The notes beneath the pieces are model-generated. The model saw nothing but the letters and a program-made list of their open reading frames with translations, searched no databases and was not told where the DNA came from. A DNA stretch of 64,000 nt from Bacteroidetes bacterium 2013_40CM_41_45 (GTDB lineage: Bacteria; Bacteroidota; Bacteroidia; AKYH767-A; 2013-40CM-41-45): NCBI GenBank assembly GCA_002215675.1, contig NGFH01000005.1, forward strand, positions 248,001 through 312,000, in the 5' to 3' direction. A program made the translations under genes and the position numbers. Positions within the stretch are counted from its first letter, which is position 1; every line of letters starts with the position of its first letter. This document shows, in pieces, positions 7,989 through 42,022 of the stretch.

Positions 7989-10862
7989 ATGAAAACAACT
8001 CTAACAAGGTCGGTTCGATATGTACTGACTCTGATTTTTCTCACATCAATGGGCATGGTCGGCTATGGACAAACGCTGACCACCGATTCTGCCGATTATC
8101 AGCCTGGCTCTACCTGCACCATTACCGGCTCAGGATTCTGGGCCAATGAAAGCGTATCTGTTCAGGTTCATCATGCCGACGGAACACCAGACACAGGCGC
8201 AGACCACCTGCCGTGGAGTGTTACGACCGACGGCAACGGTCACTTTGTTACCACCTGGCACGTTTGCACGGATGACTGCGTGAATTCAGTCCTCGGAGCA
8301 ATGGCAACGGGAAGTTCATCCGGCCTGGGAGCTTATGTAGAATTCACAGATGCAGGTCCCAATGGCCCTCCGGTTAATCCTCCCGATGGCGGAGCATGTA
8401 TCACCAGCGTGATTTCAGAAAACAACCATTGCGTTCAATCCACTTTGGACGGACCAAACCAGGTTTGGGATATCCAGGAAGGCGGAATCTATTTGGTTAC
8501 TCTTTCCAATGCAACCGATGTGGGTAACGGAGGAACAGATTTATCCATTCTTGTAAATGTTATTAATAGCGATAACGGTAACACCTGCAACATAGTAGCT
8601 AATCAGTTCCCACCCTATGTAGCCGGAGTTTATACTTTCGAATTCACTATGCCCGCTAATGCCTGCAATACCTACCCTGTGAGGTATGGTGTAACTGATT
8701 GCAATGGCAGTTCAGGACTTGGTGCAAAGGCTGCAAATTGCTTAAACGATGGTCACCTGCGCGCAGCAATTTTTGATGGCAGTTGTATTAAGACCGCCAA
8801 TGATGTGGATTGTCAGCAGATAACTTGTATTCCTCCTAGCGTATCCTCTTGCAATGGCGGTGGAACTTTGGGATGCAATCCTACTTCTCTTCCCCCTGCC
8901 GTTATCACCCCTACTTTTGAAGGAACAAATGCAACAGCGACATATACTGATGTAACATCTAACATTGGCTGCAGCTATACTCTTACCAGGACATGGACAA
9001 TTACCGGTGACTGCACACCGGATGCCACTTGCGACCAGGTTTATACTTATACTGTCGACAATGATGCTCCATCCATTACATGCGCTCCTGACGTTGTACA
9101 GTGCGATAATGGTTCCAATTGTATAACCCTTACCCAACCAACGGTAAGCGATGGCTGCAATAATGGAGTCTCTGTTTCACACAGCCCTGCTATAACATGC
9201 TATCCTGTGGGCACTACGGTGATAACCTGGACTGCTACCGATGGCTGCGGCAATTCTGCAACGTGCTCACAAACGGTCACCATTAATCCACGCCCAAATG
9301 TATCTATAGGTCCGGCTGGTCCTATATCGGCTTGCGAATCGCAGGATTGTGTTACACTTACCGCAAGCGGTGCTGATTCATATTTATGGAGCCCCACCGG
9401 TGAAACCACTGCAAGCGTAGATGTATGCGCTCCGGGTTCTTATTCTTATTCTGTAATTGGAACCATTAATGCAACCGGTTGTTCCTCTTCTGCAGGTCCG
9501 GTCAGCGTTACCATTCATCCGAATCCTACCTGCGGAATTGACCCGCTGCAGTATGATGCAAACAATAATAATAGCTGGGATGAATCCGAGCTTCCGGTGG
9601 CAAATTCTACTAACAATTCCATAGTAGCTACCTACATTGCAGAACCCGGAAGCATACTCGTTTGGTCTTCTTCTAACCTTAGCTGGCCCATTACAGGCGG
9701 ACAGGGAACAGCTACGGTTTATTTCACAGCAGGGCCTATCGGTACATCTGCAACATTTACGCTTACTGTTCACTCGCCCTACAATTGCACCAGCACATGT
9801 GAAATTACTTTCTCTACCGAAGTGCATGAACAATGTGCTTACACGCAAGGCTTCTATGGAAGCACCAATGGCCAGATGACCTGCATTGGATTAACGGCAG
9901 TTCCTGCAATACAGCAAGCATTGGGATGCCCTTACCAGTGCACTACTACGGGAAGCACTCCTTATTCTACCTGCAATCCTATTGTGGTTGGCCAGGGAAG
10001 CAGAAAGGTTACTGTTAATTGTAACACCGCAGCAGCAATATGTCTTAATGCAAAGATGCCGTCATCAGGCAGTCCTTCTGCATTGCCTAATGCTTCGGTT
10101 GACATTTGCAATGCTACCGGAAACACATGGCTCAATAACCAAAACAGGTTAAAAAATACTTTACTCGGACAAGCAATTGCCCTTAACCTGAACATTCGTC
10201 TATTCGCGGGATTAGGCAATCTGCATATTACCACTTCTTCATTCACTACGTATGGACGCGTGCCAGGAGATTGCGACCCGACCTCGACAAGCTTTGTTGC
10301 CAGCAATGTTGTGACCAAAACAATTCCTCAGTCAGTAATCAATTGCCTGGGAAGCAACTCTCTGAACAATACGGTTCTCAAGCTTCGCGACCTTGCTAAC
10401 AGGGCGCTGGGATATACCGGCAACGGTAACCCGACATGCGCTGCTCTTCTATGCACTGGCACCTGCACCCCTCCGACCTTCTCTGATATTACTGCAGCCC
10501 TGACTGCTATCAACGAAGGTTTTGATGCCTGCCGTTTCATGAGCGGATTTAATGTTCGCATGGACGAGGTTTCTTCTGCGCTTCTCGATGGCTCGACCAC
10601 CATGGTTGTTTATCCTAACCCGGCAACCGATGTAACGTCAATTGAGTTCCTTGCTTCAGGCACCGGCAATGCAACCGTTAATGTATATAACCTCAGCGGT
10701 TCATTGATGAGTGTTCTTTTCAATGAAAGTGTAACGGAAGGTTCGGCTTATAAAATGAACTTCAATACGACTACACTGTCACCGGGCATTTATTTTGTTC
10801 GTCTAAACATTGGAGGTGAATCAACCGTAAGCAAACTGGTTGTAATGGGTAGAGAAAAATAA
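7989..10862 (+). CDS. Secreted cysteine-rich surface protein with HYR domain and type A T9SS signal
   Basis: The 957-residue product has a signal peptide (cleavage after about residue 27, GYGQ). A Big-type N-terminal region follows (TDSADYQPGSTCTITGSGF), which resembles the extracellular YD/Ig-like start of many Bacteroidota surface proteins. It then has a long cysteine-rich region, an HYR domain at about 365-435 (CYPVGTTVITWTATDGCGNS), Ig/PKD-like modules and a TQGFYGSTNG segment near 620. The C-terminal about 80 residues (VVYPNPATDVTSIEF ... GIYFVRLNI) form a type A T9SS sorting domain, so the protein should be exported through the Por/Spr translocon and anchored on the surface or released. 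Function is unknown; adhesion is plausible from the modules. A strong terminator follows at 10885. Confidence 0.85.
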   Translation: MKTTLTRSVRYVLTLIFLTSMGMVGYGQTLTTDSADYQPGSTCTITGSGFWANESVSVQVHHADGTPDTGADHLPWSVTTDGNGHFVTTWHVCTDDCVNSVLGAMATGSSSGLGAYVEFTDAGPNGPPVNPPDGGACITSVISENNHCVQSTLDGPNQVWDIQEGGIYLVTLSNATDVGNGGTDLSILVNVINSDNGNTCNIVANQFPPYVAGVYTFEFTMPANACNTYPVRYGVTDCNGSSGLGAKAANCLNDGHLRAAIFDGSCIKTANDVDCQQITCIPPSVSSCNGGGTLGCNPTSLPPAVITPTFEGTNATATYTDVTSNIGCSYTLTRTWTITGDCTPDATCDQVYTYTVDNDAPSITCAPDVVQCDNGSNCITLTQPTVSDGCNNGVSVSHSPAITCYPVGTTVITWTATDGCGNSATCSQTVTINPRPNVSIGPAGPISACESQDCVTLTASGADSYLWSPTGETTASVDVCAPGSYSYSVIGTINATGCSSSAGPVSVTIHPNPTCGIDPLQYDANNNNSWDESELPVANSTNNSIVATYIAEPGSILVWSSSNLSWPITGGQGTATVYFTAGPIGTSATFTLTVHSPYNCTSTCEITFSTEVHEQCAYTQGFYGSTNGQMTCIGLTAVPAIQQALGCPYQCTTTGSTPYSTCNPIVVGQGSRKVTVNCNTAAAICLNAKMPSSGSPSALPNASVDICNATGNTWLNNQNRLKNTLLGQAIALNLNIRLFAGLGNLHITTSSFTTYGRVPGDCDPTSTSFVASNVVTKTIPQSVINCLGSNSLNNTVLKLRDLANRALGYTGNGNPTCAALLCTGTCTPPTFSDITAALTAINEGFDACRFMSGFNVRMDEVSSALLDGSTTMVVYPNPATDVTSIEFLASGTGNATVNVYNLSGSLMSVLFNESVTEGSAYKMNFNTTTLSPGIYFVRLNIGGESTVSKLVVMGREK

Positions 10863-37607: not shown

Positions 37608-37816
37608 GGCTCAAAAATAGGATTTGTAATAGAGATTTCTCCTGTTTATTGATGAAAATAAGAACATTTTTTGCCGATGTTATTTATTTGGGCAAGGCTT
37701 TGGAAACATCATATTTAGCAAGGGATTTACAATGTTTTACAGCAATGGCAACTATATCCCAGTTTGCACTAAGTGGTTAAACAGGTAGATTTCAGGGAAT
37801 AATAAGAAGCGGGGTT
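37608..37816. other. No gene seen in 209 bp after the recR start
   Basis: A/T-rich sequence between recR and the small lysine-rich ORF. I find no ORF over 20 codons with coding character, no tRNA and no clear terminator. It is the left edge of the accessory island. Confidence 0.4.
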
Positions 37817-37921
37817 TCACTTCTTTTTTTTGACCTTCTTTTTTCCTTTTGCCGCGACTTGGAGCAACTCTTCAAAGGTGGCGTGAACTTTCAAGGGCTT
37901 TTCTTTTTTCTTCTTAGTCAT
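37817..37921 (-). CDS. Tiny lysine-rich protein of 34 residues
   Basis: An ATG on the minus strand at 37921 opens 34 codons ending at TGA 37817-37819. The product has lysine-rich ends around a core KPLKVHATFEELLQVAAKGK. The core (PLK-V-A-[TS]-FEEL) resembles short conserved peptides I recall from many Bacteroidota genomes, though I cannot name a family. Both termini are so basic that nucleic-acid or membrane binding is conceivable. The conserved-looking core is the main reason for calling it real despite its size. Confidence 0.5.
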   Translation of the reverse strand: MTKKKKEKPLKVHATFEELLQVAAKGKKKVKKKK

Positions 37922-38200
37922 AGAGCAAAGTTATTATTTTTGACTTCATGCGGTATGGGTTCTCTGATTCACTTCATAACATAGCGGGAAAGATTTTAGG
38001 AATGATTGCTGAATATAGGAAGTGGCATAGCGAATAAATTGATATTGACCAAATTTTTTTCTCTTATATTTTTCACAAAATACTAAGATGTACAATTCTT
38101 TGTTCAAAAATAAATTCTCTAAAACCCAAAATATATTTGTAAATCCCAAAACTATATTTACTTTTACCCGAAATTAATAACTGTAAAACTTTTATTTGCG
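37922..38200. other. AT-rich region upstream of the 148-residue unknown gene
   Basis: This stretch of 279 bp has a near-repeat pair ATATTTGTAAAT / ATATTTACTTTT at 38140-38165. An opposite-strand ORF of 67 codons overlaps it but has no convincing coding features. It should contain the promoter of the downstream gene; no clear TAnnTTTG match stands out. Confidence 0.4.
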
Positions 38201-38647
38201 ATGAACGAAAATGCAATTCAGGAATTAGAGAAAAAGAAACTTGCTTTAATGCATAATATAAAAGTATTGGATGAAGCTATGGCGATTATGAAGGGGGAAA
38301 ACTCTGTGAGTCCATCTTCTGAGGTAAAAAAGGCAGGACGGAAACCTCTCAATAATCTGATTAAATTAAAAGAAGATATCCAAAATACAATAACGGAAAA
38401 AAAGAAGCCATTAAGTAGAAAGTCTCTTTCAACATTGTTAAAATCATCATCCTACAATATTCCTAAAGATGAATTTGAAAAACGAATATCAAAAGCTACG
38501 TCTCTATTAAAGAAAGATAAAAAGCTTGTTAATATAGGTGGCACGAGAAATGCTTTTTGGTATTTACCTGAATGGGTGGAGAATGGAAAACCAAAAGATG
38601 AATTTAATCATAAAAAAATCCAGGAACAGCTTTTAATAAGTTCTTAA
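38201..38647 (+). CDS. Unrecognised 148-residue basic protein
   Basis: The product starts with a predicted coiled coil (about 5-35, QELEKKKLALMHNIKVLDEAM), then a lysine-rich linker with RKPLNNLIKLKEDI and a C-terminal segment with SRKSLSTLLKSSSY, ISKATSLLKKDKKLVN and a final NAFWYLPEWVENGKP. The last two segments read like a small winged-helix domain, a DNA-binding fold, but this is only an impression. Base composition is much more A/T-rich than the flanking core genes, consistent with horizontal acquisition. It sits 5 bp before the tRNA-like gene. Function unknown. Confidence 0.6.
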   Translation: MNENAIQELEKKKLALMHNIKVLDEAMAIMKGENSVSPSSEVKKAGRKPLNNLIKLKEDIQNTITEKKKPLSRKSLSTLLKSSSYNIPKDEFEKRISKATSLLKKDKKLVNIGGTRNAFWYLPEWVENGKPKDEFNHKKIQEQLLISS

Positions 38648-38652
38648 AAAAA

Positions 38653-38752
38653 CGCGGAGTAGCTCAATGGATAGAGTGCTTCTTTTTTTCCTTGCGGTGG
38701 TACGTGGGGAAAACACTATGAAGAGATGCAGGTTCGAATCCTGCTTTCGCGG
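38653..38752 (+). tRNA. tRNA-Arg-like gene with a hairpin-expanded anticodon arm
   Basis: The acceptor stem (38653-38659 with 38745-38751), D arm GCTC-AATGGATA-GAGT, 4-base variable loop and T arm GCAGG-TTCGAAT-CCTGC are canonical. The D-loop and T-arm sequences resemble tRNA-Arg genes. The anticodon stem CTTC/GAAG is 4 bp (38679-38682 with 38720-38723). In place of a 7-base loop there are 37 bases, which fold into an 11-bp hairpin (38686-38696 with 38703-38713; three G-U pairs; loop GTGGTA). No anticodon can be assigned with confidence. CCA is not encoded. It may be a pseudogene, a tRNA with an insert, or a mobile-element tRNA relic. Confidence 0.6.
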
Positions 38753-38869
38753 CTAATAAAACATTCCGTGCAAGCGGATAAACAGGAAAAACAGAGGGAA
38801 AAACTAACTCTGTCGTTCATGAATAGAAATGCTTCATAAGCAAAATAAATAATGAACTGACTGTTGGCA

Positions 38870-38903
38870 GGGGTTGTAAGGTCGCTACTTACAGCCCTTG
38901 TTT
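38870..38903 (+). terminator. Hairpin between the tRNA-like gene and the transposase
   Basis: GGGTTGTAAG and CTTACAGCCC form a 10-bp stem (one G-U pair) with a GTCGCTA loop, followed by TTGTTTCATTTTA. It may end plus-strand transcription from the tRNA-like region or mark the end of the insertion element. Confidence 0.5.
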
Positions 38904-38947
38904 CATTTTATACGGCAAAGTAAGGGGATTGGCGCGACACTTCAAAA

Positions 38948-39904
38948 TTATTTTTTACCGATAAGCTGTTGATATTTCAACCTTTTCCCGCTTGCCCCTG
39001 TAATAGCATTACAGAACCGTTCTGATTCACCCTGTTGCCGTGTGTTGTACCGATACGAAAACTCATCACAGTAACGGTTTAAATGCTTCGCGCTTACATA
39101 ATGAAATATCCCGATTATCCCTCGTTTGAGCAAACTGAACGCCCCCTCTATTGTGTTCGTATGAACCCCGTCCCTGAAATACTCGTTATACAAGTGAGCG
39201 ACGGTCTCGTGCTTATAACCTAACTTAGTTAACTGTTGGTACGTCCTGTACTCGTCCGTGTGCATTGTAGAACCTTTTTTGACGTGCTTTTCAATAAGAG
39301 GCAGAATGTCTTTTTTGGTCGTAGCTTTCATTACCTGTTGAACCAGTTTGCCGTCCCGTTGCACCAGTCCTAATACAGCCGTCTTAGTGTCGCCTGTCGG
39401 TCTGCCTTTCAACGTCCCCTTTAATTCATGCTGTTTCTTTCTTTCTCCAACGTGTTTGTTACTTAGCTTACCCCCTACGTAGGTCTCGTCAATTTCCACC
39501 GTGCCTTGTAACATTACGGGCTGACTTTCTCTGAGCATTTCACGTATGCGATGATTAACAAACCACGCTGCCTTTTGAGTTATTCCTAAATCGCGGGATA
39601 ACTGTAATGAGCTAATCCCTTTCTTATGGGATGTAACGAGATACATTGCAATAAACCACTTCTGCAAAGGCAGTTTTGTGTTCTCAAATATTGTCCCGAC
39701 GGTAACAGTAAATTTCTGTTTACAGTCTTTATCAGAACATTTATACGTCTTACCGTCTTTCAGCTTGTACGGCTTGCTTGCCGTTCCGCAATGAGGGCAA
39801 GCGGGGTTTCCGTTCCAACGGATGCGCTCTAATTGTTCCCTGCATACTTCCTCTGAATGAAATACTTTTTGAATGTCAGATAGGTTTTTGAATTTTGTTT
39901 CCAT
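38948..39904 (-). mobile_element. IS1595-family (ISXO2-like) transposase gene
   Basis: The 318-residue protein has an N-terminal zinc ribbon (PHCG, about 35-64, with CPHCGTASKPY and KYKCSDKDCKQKF-type cysteines), a helix-turn-helix (LQLSRDLGITQKAAWFVNHRIR) and the ISXO2-like DDE domain with VEIDETYVGG, TMHTDEYRTYQQL and HTNTIEGAFSLLKRGI. These are the IS1595 family signatures. It is intact with no frameshift. I could not identify terminal inverted repeats on either side. The start codon lies directly beside a GTATTAC-TTT-GTATTAC repeat that may be the operator of the neighbouring ribbon-helix-helix protein. Confidence 0.9.
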
Positions 39905-39921
39905 GTATTACTTTGTATTAC
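39905..39921. promoter_or_regulatory. Direct repeat GTATTAC-TTT-GTATTAC at the transposase start
   Basis: Two copies of GTATTAC spaced 10 bp apart lie immediately upstream of the transposase ATG (read on the minus strand as GTAATAC-AAA-GTAATAC). The same heptamer with the same spacing occurs as a palindrome before the ribbon-helix-helix gene (40096-40112). Confidence 0.5.
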
Positions 39922-39938
39922 AATATGTGTAAAAAATT

Positions 39939-40082
39939 TTAGACCTTAATTTTTTTCTTAATGGTATCCTCGAAAACAAGACGAATGAAGTCGCTCATTT
40001 CGCGTCTGTTTTCTTCTGCGAGTTTGATTAGCTTTGCTTTCATATCTTTATTTACCCTGATAATTATTGTTTCGTCTTTCAT
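39939..40082 (-). CDS. Ribbon-helix-helix (CopG/Arc-type) small DNA-binding protein
   Basis: From the ATG at 40082 the product has 47 residues: a beta-strand segment ETIIIRVNKDMKAKLIKLAE followed by two helices (NRREMSDFIRLVFEDTIKKK), the ribbon-helix-helix pattern. An upstream ATG at 40121 would add 13 hydrophobic residues and is less likely. It lies 35 bp upstream of the transposase start on the same strand. It is short for an antitoxin and no toxin gene is adjacent. A role as repressor of its own and the transposase promoter is suggested by heptamer sites next to both. Confidence 0.75.
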   Translation of the reverse strand: MKDETIIIRVNKDMKAKLIKLAEENRREMSDFIRLVFEDTIKKKIKV

Positions 40083-40095
40083 AATGTAGGCAAAT

Positions 40096-40112
40096 GTAAT
40101 ACATAGTATTAC
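40096..40112. promoter_or_regulatory. Palindrome GTAATAC-ATA-GTATTAC before the ribbon-helix-helix gene
   Basis: A 7-bp perfect inverted repeat with a 3-bp spacer lies 13 bp before the start of the ribbon-helix-helix gene. It shares its heptamer and 10-bp spacing with the site beside the transposase start. Confidence 0.55.
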
Positions 40113-40147
40113 ACAAAGCAAGAAATATTTTAATTAATTTGAAAAAG

Positions 40148-41920
40148 TTATTGAGGGATTATTTCTGTTTCAAGAATAACTTTCATATCAATCACAAACA
40201 CGGGTTTTACAAACCCTGAAAGGCGTAGAATATGGGTAGCATGAGGAAATTGACTGGCTGTCGGGTTTAATTTTGTGGGAGGCGCAATTTTGTCTAATGC
40301 TATTCCCACGTTCTTAAATTCCTGTATGTCAACTTCTGAAACATCCCAACAAACAACGCAGTCAACTTCGTCAAATAGCTTTGTTTCGTCATTAAAATCA
40401 TTAAGTATCTTATACAAATGAGATTTAAACTCAACGACTATTTTCTTTCCTTCCCATAAAGCATATAAGTCATATTTGTTTTTATATCCCGCAATAAGAG
40501 GAATGATTTTTTTTATTCTTCCGTTACCGATAGCTTCAAAAAATAAAGCTGCGACGGTTGCCTCTTGGTCTCTTGGAGTTTTTTTAACCTTTGTACTTTT
40601 AGGAAAATAAGGTAAATCAATCAGGTCATCAATCTCATTAAAAATCTCGTCCTTGCTCCACGATGGCGGTTCTGGGCTTATATCACCCGAAACATATTTC
40701 AATATTGCATTTCTAAATTCATTAAATATCTCTCTTGCTTTCTCTTGGTATCGTTTTGCGGTTTTACCATGAATTGATTTTCTGCCAATATCAAATTTCA
40801 ATTTTTTATCCTCAAACAACATAAATATTTGTCCCCACGTACCTGCACTGCCTGTAATAGGGTGTTCAACTCTTATTCCTGTTGGCATCCCTTTAACCGA
40901 AGTAAAAATTCCCGCTTGAAAAATCGAATAAGAGAATAGCTCTAAAAACTTTTCGTCTTTTAAATTTTCTTCCGTTCCTAAATTTTCTGATATAGACAAT
41001 ATATCCCATGTCGCTCTACTTGGAACAAGGCAAATCCACGCATTTATTTTTCTTGTTAAAAGGTCTATTGTTGTTGACTTGTAAACTATTTTACTTTTTA
41101 ATTTTAATCTCTTTTGTTGGTCGGTCTTGTCGTCTTTTATGTAATCGTAATAATCATCTAAGTTTATTTTGTCGTTTTCACTTACACCCTCTATTGGCAA
41201 AAAATATCTAAAGGGAATACTTTTTTCAATATGTTCTTTGCCATCCGCATCAATATAATTAAGGGTTACTGAAATATTAATGTCGTTTGGCTCCCAAATA
41301 GTTTTGGTGTTCCCAATAGCAGTTTTGGTTCGGAGAACAAATTTTAACTTAACTAAATCTAAGGTGAAAAGAGGGCATTCGGGAATGTTATTTAAAATAA
41401 CCTCGGTTCCCTCGAAATCTTTTTCTATTTCATCATGTTCCAAAGGAAGAAAGTTATCATCTGTGTTTCTTTTCCAGTTGAACGCCCCCTTCACTTTAGC
41501 ATAAGATGCCGTGGTTTCTGTGGCGGTTTTTAAATAAAAATCATTTGTGGAAAAAATAGCAAACTTTAGCCCTACTCCTTTTTCTCCTATACTCTTTTCA
41601 TCCCCTCTCTTATCGGTTCCAAATAACGAAAGCAGATTCGGCAGTTTCCCCGTCTCAATTCCAACCCCATTGTCTTTTATTGTCAAAGACTGAGTTTGAC
41701 AGTCAACCCTTATCTCAATTTTACCATCTGTTCTTTCTGATTTCCGTATTGCATCTACCGAATTTTGAATTAATTCAGCAAGTATATCCCAGTCATTATT
41801 GTAGCTATCATCAATATCTAAAATACTTTGCCTAATTCGTTCATAATTTTGCTCAAGAAAGTTTGAAACAGGCGGCATGAGATTTGTAAATTTCTTTGAC
41901 GAAGTAAGTAAATTATTCAT
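40148..41920 (-). CDS. GHKL-type ATPase fused to a PD-(D/E)XK-like nuclease domain (putative defence protein)
   Basis: The N-terminal about 240 residues show a Bergerat ATP-binding fold: N-box ELIQNSVDA (Glu49, Asn53), G1 DNGVGI (83-88) and G2 GEKGVG (112-117). There is no phospho-acceptor histidine domain, so it is not a sensor kinase. A middle region (about 270-410, with GIRVEHPITGSAGTWGQIF and FDIGRKSIHG) recalls MORC/Hsp90-like transducer segments. The C-terminal part has Glu462, Asp484 and Glu497-Phe498-Lys499 (VVEFK), the spacing of a PD-(D/E)XK nuclease. Prokaryotic GHKL/MORC-like ATPases with nuclease domains occur in restriction-type systems. It is A/T-rich, follows the IS1595 unit on the same strand, and no methyltransferase gene is adjacent. 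Role is inferred. Confidence 0.75.
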   Translation of the reverse strand: MNNLLTSSKKFTNLMPPVSNFLEQNYERIRQSILDIDDSYNNDWDILAELIQNSVDAIRKSERTDGKIEIRVDCQTQSLTIKDNGVGIETGKLPNLLSLFGTDKRGDEKSIGEKGVGLKFAIFSTNDFYLKTATETTASYAKVKGAFNWKRNTDDNFLPLEHDEIEKDFEGTEVILNNIPECPLFTLDLVKLKFVLRTKTAIGNTKTIWEPNDINISVTLNYIDADGKEHIEKSIPFRYFLPIEGVSENDKINLDDYYDYIKDDKTDQQKRLKLKSKIVYKSTTIDLLTRKINAWICLVPSRATWDILSISENLGTEENLKDEKFLELFSYSIFQAGIFTSVKGMPTGIRVEHPITGSAGTWGQIFMLFEDKKLKFDIGRKSIHGKTAKRYQEKAREIFNEFRNAILKYVSGDISPEPPSWSKDEIFNEIDDLIDLPYFPKSTKVKKTPRDQEATVAALFFEAIGNGRIKKIIPLIAGYKNKYDLYALWEGKKIVVEFKSHLYKILNDFNDETKLFDEVDCVVCWDVSEVDIQEFKNVGIALDKIAPPTKLNPTASQFPHATHILRLSGFVKPVFVIDMKVILETEIIPQ

Positions 41921-41992
41921 GACTTACTCCCTTCCTGTGAATAAGATGAAAAAAACCTATTTGTGCAAAGTGAGATATAGTCACCACAGCAA

Positions 41993-42022
41993 TTGCTTTA
42001 GCAGCTAAAATTAATACCTTTG
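41993..42022 (+). promoter_or_regulatory. Putative promoter of the Wzz/Wzy operon
   Basis: TTG (41993-41995), a 19-bp spacer and TACCTTTG (42015-42022) fit the Bacteroidota TTTG-N19-TAnnTTTG pattern. It is followed at once by an inverted repeat (ACGCC at 42023-42027 with GGCGT at 42038-42042) that overlaps the GTG start of the first gene, so translation initiation may sit in a hairpin. Confidence 0.55.

Follow-up and report, generated by a model that had tools for sequence, protein, structure and literature searches.

The window, as we call the whole 64-kb stretch of DNA analysed here, holds a 4.24-kb transposon of the IS1595 family, bounded by terminal inverted repeats, which spans positions 37747-41985 and hosts a tRNA-like gene (Table 1). 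This gene was the sole Rfam match returned by cmscan for the whole window; the match to the tRNA model RF00005 (E 1.2e-7; gathering score 29) covers exactly the span given in a preliminary description of this DNA, which had also reported intact arms, and leaves 31 nt unaligned within the anticodon loop. By direct reading, the acceptor strands CGCGGAG/TTTCGCG pair at 7 of 7 positions, two of them as G-U, the D arm is GCTC-AATGGATA-GAGT with an Arg-type loop containing A20, the variable region is AGAT, position 73 is G and CCA is not encoded. The stretch that replaces the anticodon loop reads TTT-(TTTTCCTTGCG-GTGGTA-CGTGGGGAAAA)-CACTAT, with a hairpin loop of 6 nt; sequence and fold bear out the earlier account of a 4-bp CTTC/GAAG stem around 37 nt, with an 11-bp hairpin set between TTT and CACTAT.

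Table 1. Features of the window element and of related loci; numbers without an L prefix are window positions.
Feature	Position	Strand	Remarks
Left target-site duplication ACAGCAAT	37739-37746	.	8-mer identical to 41986-41993, directly outside the terminal repeats
Left terminal inverted repeat GGCAACTATATCCCAGTTTGCAC...	37747-37778	+	33-nt inverted pair, 79% complementary
Small basic ORF, 34 aa, lysine-rich	37817-37921	-	similar small lysine-rich ORFs in the G762 and G066 elements
148-aa ORF upstream of the tRNA-like RNA	38201-38647	+	homologues in G762 (E=1e-16) and G049 (E=3e-4)
tRNA-Arg-like RNA without anticodon loop	38653-38752	+	Rfam tRNA score 49.7 bits; kept in G049 (45.2 bits) and G762 (52.0 bits)
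Anticodon stem, 4 bp, 5' strand CTTC	38679-38682	+	pairs with GAAG 38720-38723; CCAC/GTGG in G049, TCCC/GGGA in G762
37-nt stretch replacing the anticodon loop	38683-38719	+	TTT, 11-bp hairpin 38686-38713, CACTAT (fold)
T arm GCAGG-TTCGAAT-CCTGC	38728-38744	+	same in all three copies except one loop base
15-bp hairpin then T-rich DNA, terminator-like	38866-38902	+	between convergent genes; fold of 38753-38950
IS1595-family (ISXO2-like) transposase, 318 aa	38948-39904	-	Pfam PF12762 1.2e-44 and PF12760 2.4e-12
47-aa ribbon-helix-helix-like regulator	39939-40082	-	ORF; similar ORF in G762
Variable cargo: 590-aa GHKL-type ATPase	40148-41920	-	Pfam HATPase_c_3 2.5e-13
Right terminal inverted repeat GGTGACTATATCTCACTTTGCAC...	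41954-41985	-	partner of the left repeat
Right target-site duplication ACAGCAAT	41986-41993	.	matches the left 8-mer
G762 ORF	L181 7658-8200	+	start of the ORF/tRNA-like/transposase order
G762 tRNA-like gene with insert	L181 8289-8386	+	52.0 bits
G762 IS1595 transposase, convergent	L181 8786-9709	-	
G762 ribbon-helix-helix-like gene	L181 about 9770-9916	-	
Phage tRNA-Arg(UCU) with insert	L147 1997-2096 (PX29); L148 1996-2100 (Aeh1); L149, L151, L152		

Gene finders handled the locus poorly. ARAGORN with introns off, its default mode, called no tRNA at the gene, and with introns on it returned the same span as the Rfam match together with a meaningless, false anticodon. No tmRNA was detected in the window by ARAGORN or Rfam. 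When 540 shuffled regions and 186 tiles of the window were searched for a strict cloverleaf, none turned up. Folded on its own, the 100-mer has a lowest-energy structure (z -2.3) that keeps the inner hairpin and mispairs the acceptor and anticodon arms; since this structure differs from the cloverleaf, support for the latter comes from the covariance model and from comparison.

Set against what a translating tRNA needs, the gene has the acceptor, D and T arms and lacks a 7-nt loop with U33 and a readable anticodon. Without this gene, the chromosomal tRNA set of the 3.38-Mb genome (11 contigs) is still complete, with about 40 other tRNA genes outside the phage-like contig C4, including those for Arg TCT, CCT, ACG and CCG, and the insert is present as a single copy with no homology to other repeats of that genome. 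The window gene, real and conserved, does not count among the chromosomal decoding tRNAs. The phage-like contig C4 of this genome, G000, (147,646 bases) itself carries at least 27 tRNA genes in three clusters, which serve nearly all amino acids.

The element has the marks of the IS1595 family, namely a DDE_Tnp_IS1595 transposase with a zinc ribbon, terminal inverted repeats and an 8-bp target duplication. The repeats match at 19 of 24 positions and are accompanied by the duplication, an arrangement seen around the site in 0 of 200 shuffles, and each repeat occurs once in the genome. The gene for the ribbon-helix-helix-like protein is flanked by palindromic, operator-like inverted repeats (39904-39922 and 40095-40113), and the likeness of the 590-aa ATPase to the PADLOC TmtA models (E 4e-12) is confined to the generic ATPase region. 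The window transposase is 51% identical to that of a second Bacteroidota genome, G762, and both elements share the same order of ORF, tRNA-like gene with insert, convergent transposase and ribbon-helix-helix gene, the remaining cargo varying by element (GHKL ATPase in the window vs a ClpP-like SDH protease in G762). Inverted repeats with exact duplications of 8 bp also bound the elements of G762 (GTCATTTA, with perfect repeats GGGAACTATATACCAGTTGGGACAGGCC) and of G556 (AAAATTTA, around a transposase plus the ORF). In a third genome, G049, where the ORF and the tRNA-like gene are kept, no terminal repeats or target duplication were found around the copy, and a neighbouring gene encodes an FRG protein that corresponds to the PADLOC candidate defence system PDC-S15. 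The earlier suggestion of a tRNA altered by mobile DNA thus holds in part: the gene does lie inside a transposon, with terminal repeats and an 8-bp duplication, but as its cargo, and not as a chromosomal tRNA hit at the edge of an island.

As for the insertion site, recR was found in 10 relatives of the family, in 9 of them next to the same glycosyltransferase-type gene, and all ten lack such a transposase within 1.5 kb; a base-exact empty site was not obtained from them because the other flank differs. Another IS1595 element (L204 1111-3522, duplication CCTTTTAG) has a divergent tRNA-like gene near one end (L204 3376-3443, minus strand, 41.7 bits).

The tRNA-like gene starts 5 nt after the 148-aa ORF, on the same strand. 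The ORF belongs to no Pfam, PHROG or PADLOC family; judged by eye, its product has a helical N-terminus and an HTH-like C-terminus, and its AlphaFold model from the single sequence is of low confidence (pLDDT 58). The corresponding 141-aa ORF of G049 (21% identity to the window ORF by BLASTP) ends inside the tRNA-like gene, its TAG stop being U8-A9-G10 of the RNA. A profile search added further homologues in G370, G114, G556, G182, G066 and, twice, in G762; tblastn gave no matches for the window ORF in plasmids or for the G049 ORF in phages, and no related loci were found in viral contigs. Downstream of at least 4 of 9 ORF homologues the tRNA-like RNA was not found, hence the ORF does not need it, and the pairing of the two is frequent, not obligatory. 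It does recur in the G066 element, in which a cloverleaf with a normal anticodon loop and a 4-nt D loop lies 3' of the homologous ORF; this suggests a constant acceptor/T-arm module and an anticodon arm that can vary freely. A tRNA-like gene 3' of the ORF in G114 was not counted, as ARAGORN calls it tRNA-Ala(GGC), its D arm is weak and it has C33.

Homologues of the window gene were absent from 149 related genomes and, by BLAST, from plasmids, and BLAST against phages gave isolated arm matches only. A pattern search was aimed at tRNAs of the Arg type in which about 15-45 additional nt separate the D arm from the T arm. It matched 83 stretches of viral contigs and, among 395 genomes from the class, of which G049 is a member, 4 stretches; a stricter form matched 9 in about 85,000 bacterial and archaeal genomes. 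Copies with both insert and ORF are known at three loci, those of the window, G049 and G762. In their alignment the D and T arms are nearly identical, and acceptor pairs change on both strands, with compensatory changes at column pairs 4:97 (GC, CG, AU) and 5:96 (GU, UA, CG); 3 of 4 anticodon stem pairs are likewise altered on both sides. The inserts of G049 and G762 are identical at 31 of 35 positions, the ORF products being 40% identical over 98 aa, a conservation that is partly shared descent since both are in the same genus. The terminal motif GGGGA..CACT is common to the window and G762 inserts and nearly so in G049. Judged from three sequences, two of them from one genus, this conservation of arms and insert is the pattern of a maintained RNA, and not of decay or an assembly error. 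The preliminary view that the gene is not decaying at random is upheld by the compensatory changes and the conserved insert, and the comparison of anticodon arms it had proposed showed that G049 and G762 keep the insert while their anticodon stems covary. Relatives with an insert-free gene at this locus, which would have spoken for an assembly error, were looked for in the 149 related genomes and none was found.

Several other RNA genes came to light in these searches. The 24-mer GGCCGAAGSCGGTCCCATTAGCCG and the stretch CTTAGGCA occur in a structured region common to L170 5380-5600 (minus strand) and L181 8375-8480 (plus strand), which lies 3' of the tRNA-like genes of G049 and G762 and was not seen in the window element; since GGCCGAAGSCGGTCCCATTAGCCG is shared downstream in both genomes, the RNA there may extend 3', and a 3' domain of a longer RNA is possible. 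Outside any recognised transposon lie two more tRNA-Arg-like genes of Bacteroidota whose anticodon arm holds a hairpin insert (L157 5167-5262, minus strand; L159 5958-6064, plus strand); their 8-kb loci have no convincing terminal repeats or target duplication and no transposase, and they were left unassigned. Tandem tRNA-like genes of viral contigs and Lachnospiraceae (L069, L078, L086, L130, L154, L155, L124) have a conserved CAGCAA motif in a replacement of about 45 nt for the anticodon arm. This class was set aside as a relative of the window gene, one member spanning a sub-threshold YrlA match (40.6 bits); these genes may be Y RNAs. Close to a large tRNA array of G305, the inserts of two different tRNA genes (L172 6640-6750 and 6823-6940, minus strand) share ACTATTCGCT...GTTCCTAT; GTTCCTAT is also repeated between adjacent genes, in the manner of a promoter or a processing signal.

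Short inserts in anticodon loops do exist in phages. The phages PX29, Aeh1, AsFcp4, Ah1 and avDM12 encode a tRNA-Arg(UCU) in which a hairpin of 26-28 nt is inserted precisely between positions 36 and 37, and the phiAS5 orthologue (L150 301-375) has no insert; in the records these genes appear as tRNA-Lys (in two pieces), as tRNA-Glu, or unannotated. Similar insert-bearing tRNA-Arg genes are present in the viral contigs L079, L110 and L138. For each gene we listed all single excisions after which a 7-nt loop and the 31:39 pair remain. All six viral genes used as positive control (PX29, Aeh1, AsFcp4, L079, L110 and L138), in which a 26-38-nt hairpin directly follows the anticodon, gave the Arg(UCU) loop CUUCUAA with the 31:39 pair. 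In the window gene no excision gave a loop with U33, purine 37 and the 31:39 pair, the options placing an anticodon for Val, Glu or Lys in an Arg-like body, and in G049 and G762 U33 appeared in no option. A bulge-helix-bulge (4-bp helix with two flanking 3-nt bulges) is also absent from the window gene, whose fold has one 3x6 internal loop followed by the 11-bp stem. Phage tRNAs thus appear to include some with intron-like inserts, a group to which the window gene appears not to belong. The gene annotated as '57B RNA ligase' next to the PX29 tRNA was considered as a link to splicing and dropped; it is no evidence for splicing, because Pfam identifies it as an Acb1 anti-CBASS protein and the 2'-5' ligase match is below cut-off.

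Among the options first raised, a tRNA-derived RNA with another role is the best supported: the gene lies in a transposon and recurs in others, its arms are kept and its stems covary, the insert is conserved, and no normal anticodon loop can be obtained from it, which together lead us to read it as a non-decoding RNA. The feature is probably a processed, anticodon-less and non-translating tRNA mimic that serves the IS1595-family transposon; its identity as a tRNA-like RNA is well supported, its function is not. From the 5-nt spacing and the stop overlap in G049, the RNA would be co-transcribed with the upstream ORF, and host tRNA-maturation enzymes would then cut at the acceptor stem, RNase P at the 5' side and RNase Z or exonucleases at the 3' side. 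The released tRNA-shaped RNA, unable to decode, might serve the element in a structural or regulatory capacity, its likeliest roles being to terminate or stabilise the ORF mRNA, or to expose the hairpin to a tRNA-recognising protein or to the ORF product. In G049, cleavage by RNase P would take off the stop codon of the ORF, and this overlap suggests a direct coupling of RNA processing with ORF expression. More tentatively, it is possible that IS1595-type elements carry an undescribed two-part module, a gene for a small DNA- or RNA-binding protein followed by an anticodon-less mimic with a conserved hairpin, which would control expression or transposition of the element via tRNA processing, with RNase P cutting at or next to the ORF stop. 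If true, such a module would give transposons a new means of reading the tRNA metabolism of the host.

Other readings were weighed against this one. The RNA might be a decoy, a tRNA-Arg mimic that titrates a tRNA-targeting nuclease, a toxin or a tRNA-binding enzyme and so protects the element or its host, travelling as cargo alongside the variable ATPase, protease or FRG genes. The Arg-type D loop with A20 and the defence-like neighbours (the FRG protein of G049, the GHKL ATPase of the window) fit this idea; anticodon nucleases, however, recognise the anticodon loop, which is absent here, no nuclease partner was identified and the PADLOC match of the ATPase is to a generic domain, so that we regard the decoy as unlikely. 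Still less probable is a dead tRNA, caught by the transposon and broken by a palindromic insertion or an assembly error. Transposons do pick up passengers, the insert is unique in the genome and the 149 relatives have no homologue; yet the gene keeps its position and orientation in two elements with different terminal repeats and target duplications, and is found at a third locus, and the compensatory stem changes and the conserved insert come from independent assemblies, all of which already weaken this reading. About equally doubtful is a functional tRNA with a minimal 28-nt anticodon-loop intron, spliced by some bacterial activity; a tRNA with a small, intron-like insert was also among the options of the preliminary description. 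It has in its favour the phage genes with their insert-free counterpart and the intact arms outside the window insert, but we reject it since none of the three copies regains a canonical anticodon loop through a single excision, the bulge-helix-bulge is missing and the chromosome already has its Arg tRNAs. Finally, that the region acts as DNA, through oriT-like hairpins or a binding site for the transposase or a regulator, with an incidental tRNA likeness, is very improbable: it is hairpin-rich DNA within a transposon and family relatives such as the mobilizable elements MTnSag1 and tISCpe8 are mobilized by conjugation (PMC5704250), but a DNA hairpin would have no need of the tRNA sequence matches seen in both the D and the T arm, among them the T loop and the D-loop GG.

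The non-decoding mimic, taken as the preferred reading, bears on both transposon biology and annotation. Cargo of the insertion-sequence type is normally protein-coding, and a conserved non-decoding tRNA mimic among it would add a kind of regulatory RNA, Y RNA-like in style, to that biology. Default tRNA finders miss such a gene and intron-aware ones misname it. Separately, the phage genes with and without insert, from cultured T4-like phages, make the removal of a tRNA insert of less than 30 nt directly testable.

In the literature searched, which was limited in coverage, no report of a transposon-borne tRNA mimic was found, and its novelty is provisional. IS1595-family transposons with passenger genes (tIS) are a known type (Siguier et al. 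2009, as cited in PMC3942029 and PMC5704250). The window element resembles them in its zinc-ribbon DDE transposase, terminal repeats, 8-bp duplication and passenger genes, and differs by the presence of a gene for a tRNA-like RNA and of a linked ORF without known family. The bacterial Y RNA YrlA (RF02553) is a non-translating RNA with tRNA-like D, T and acceptor arms (PMC8394870), features which the window RNA shares; unlike in YrlA, the outer ends of the window RNA are the acceptor strands and the anticodon-arm hairpin is kept. RF02553 gave no match at its gathering score in the window, the G049 and G762 loci matched only tRNA at the corresponding positions at E<=1, and the TROVE protein Rsr was found in 0 of 21 genomes (its own and 20 relatives). 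Short tRNA introns of archaea and eukaryotes, which are of the bulge-helix-bulge type at position 37/38 (PMC4090602), likewise insert into the anticodon loop and leave the arms intact, but in the window gene that motif is lacking and no excision restores the loop. The tRNA-Arg(UCU) of T4-like Aeromonas phages also resembles the window gene, with a tRNA-Arg body and an anticodon loop that holds a hairpin insert of about the same length; there, unlike in the window gene, the insert follows the anticodon exactly, its removal yields CUUCUAA and an insert-free orthologue exists.
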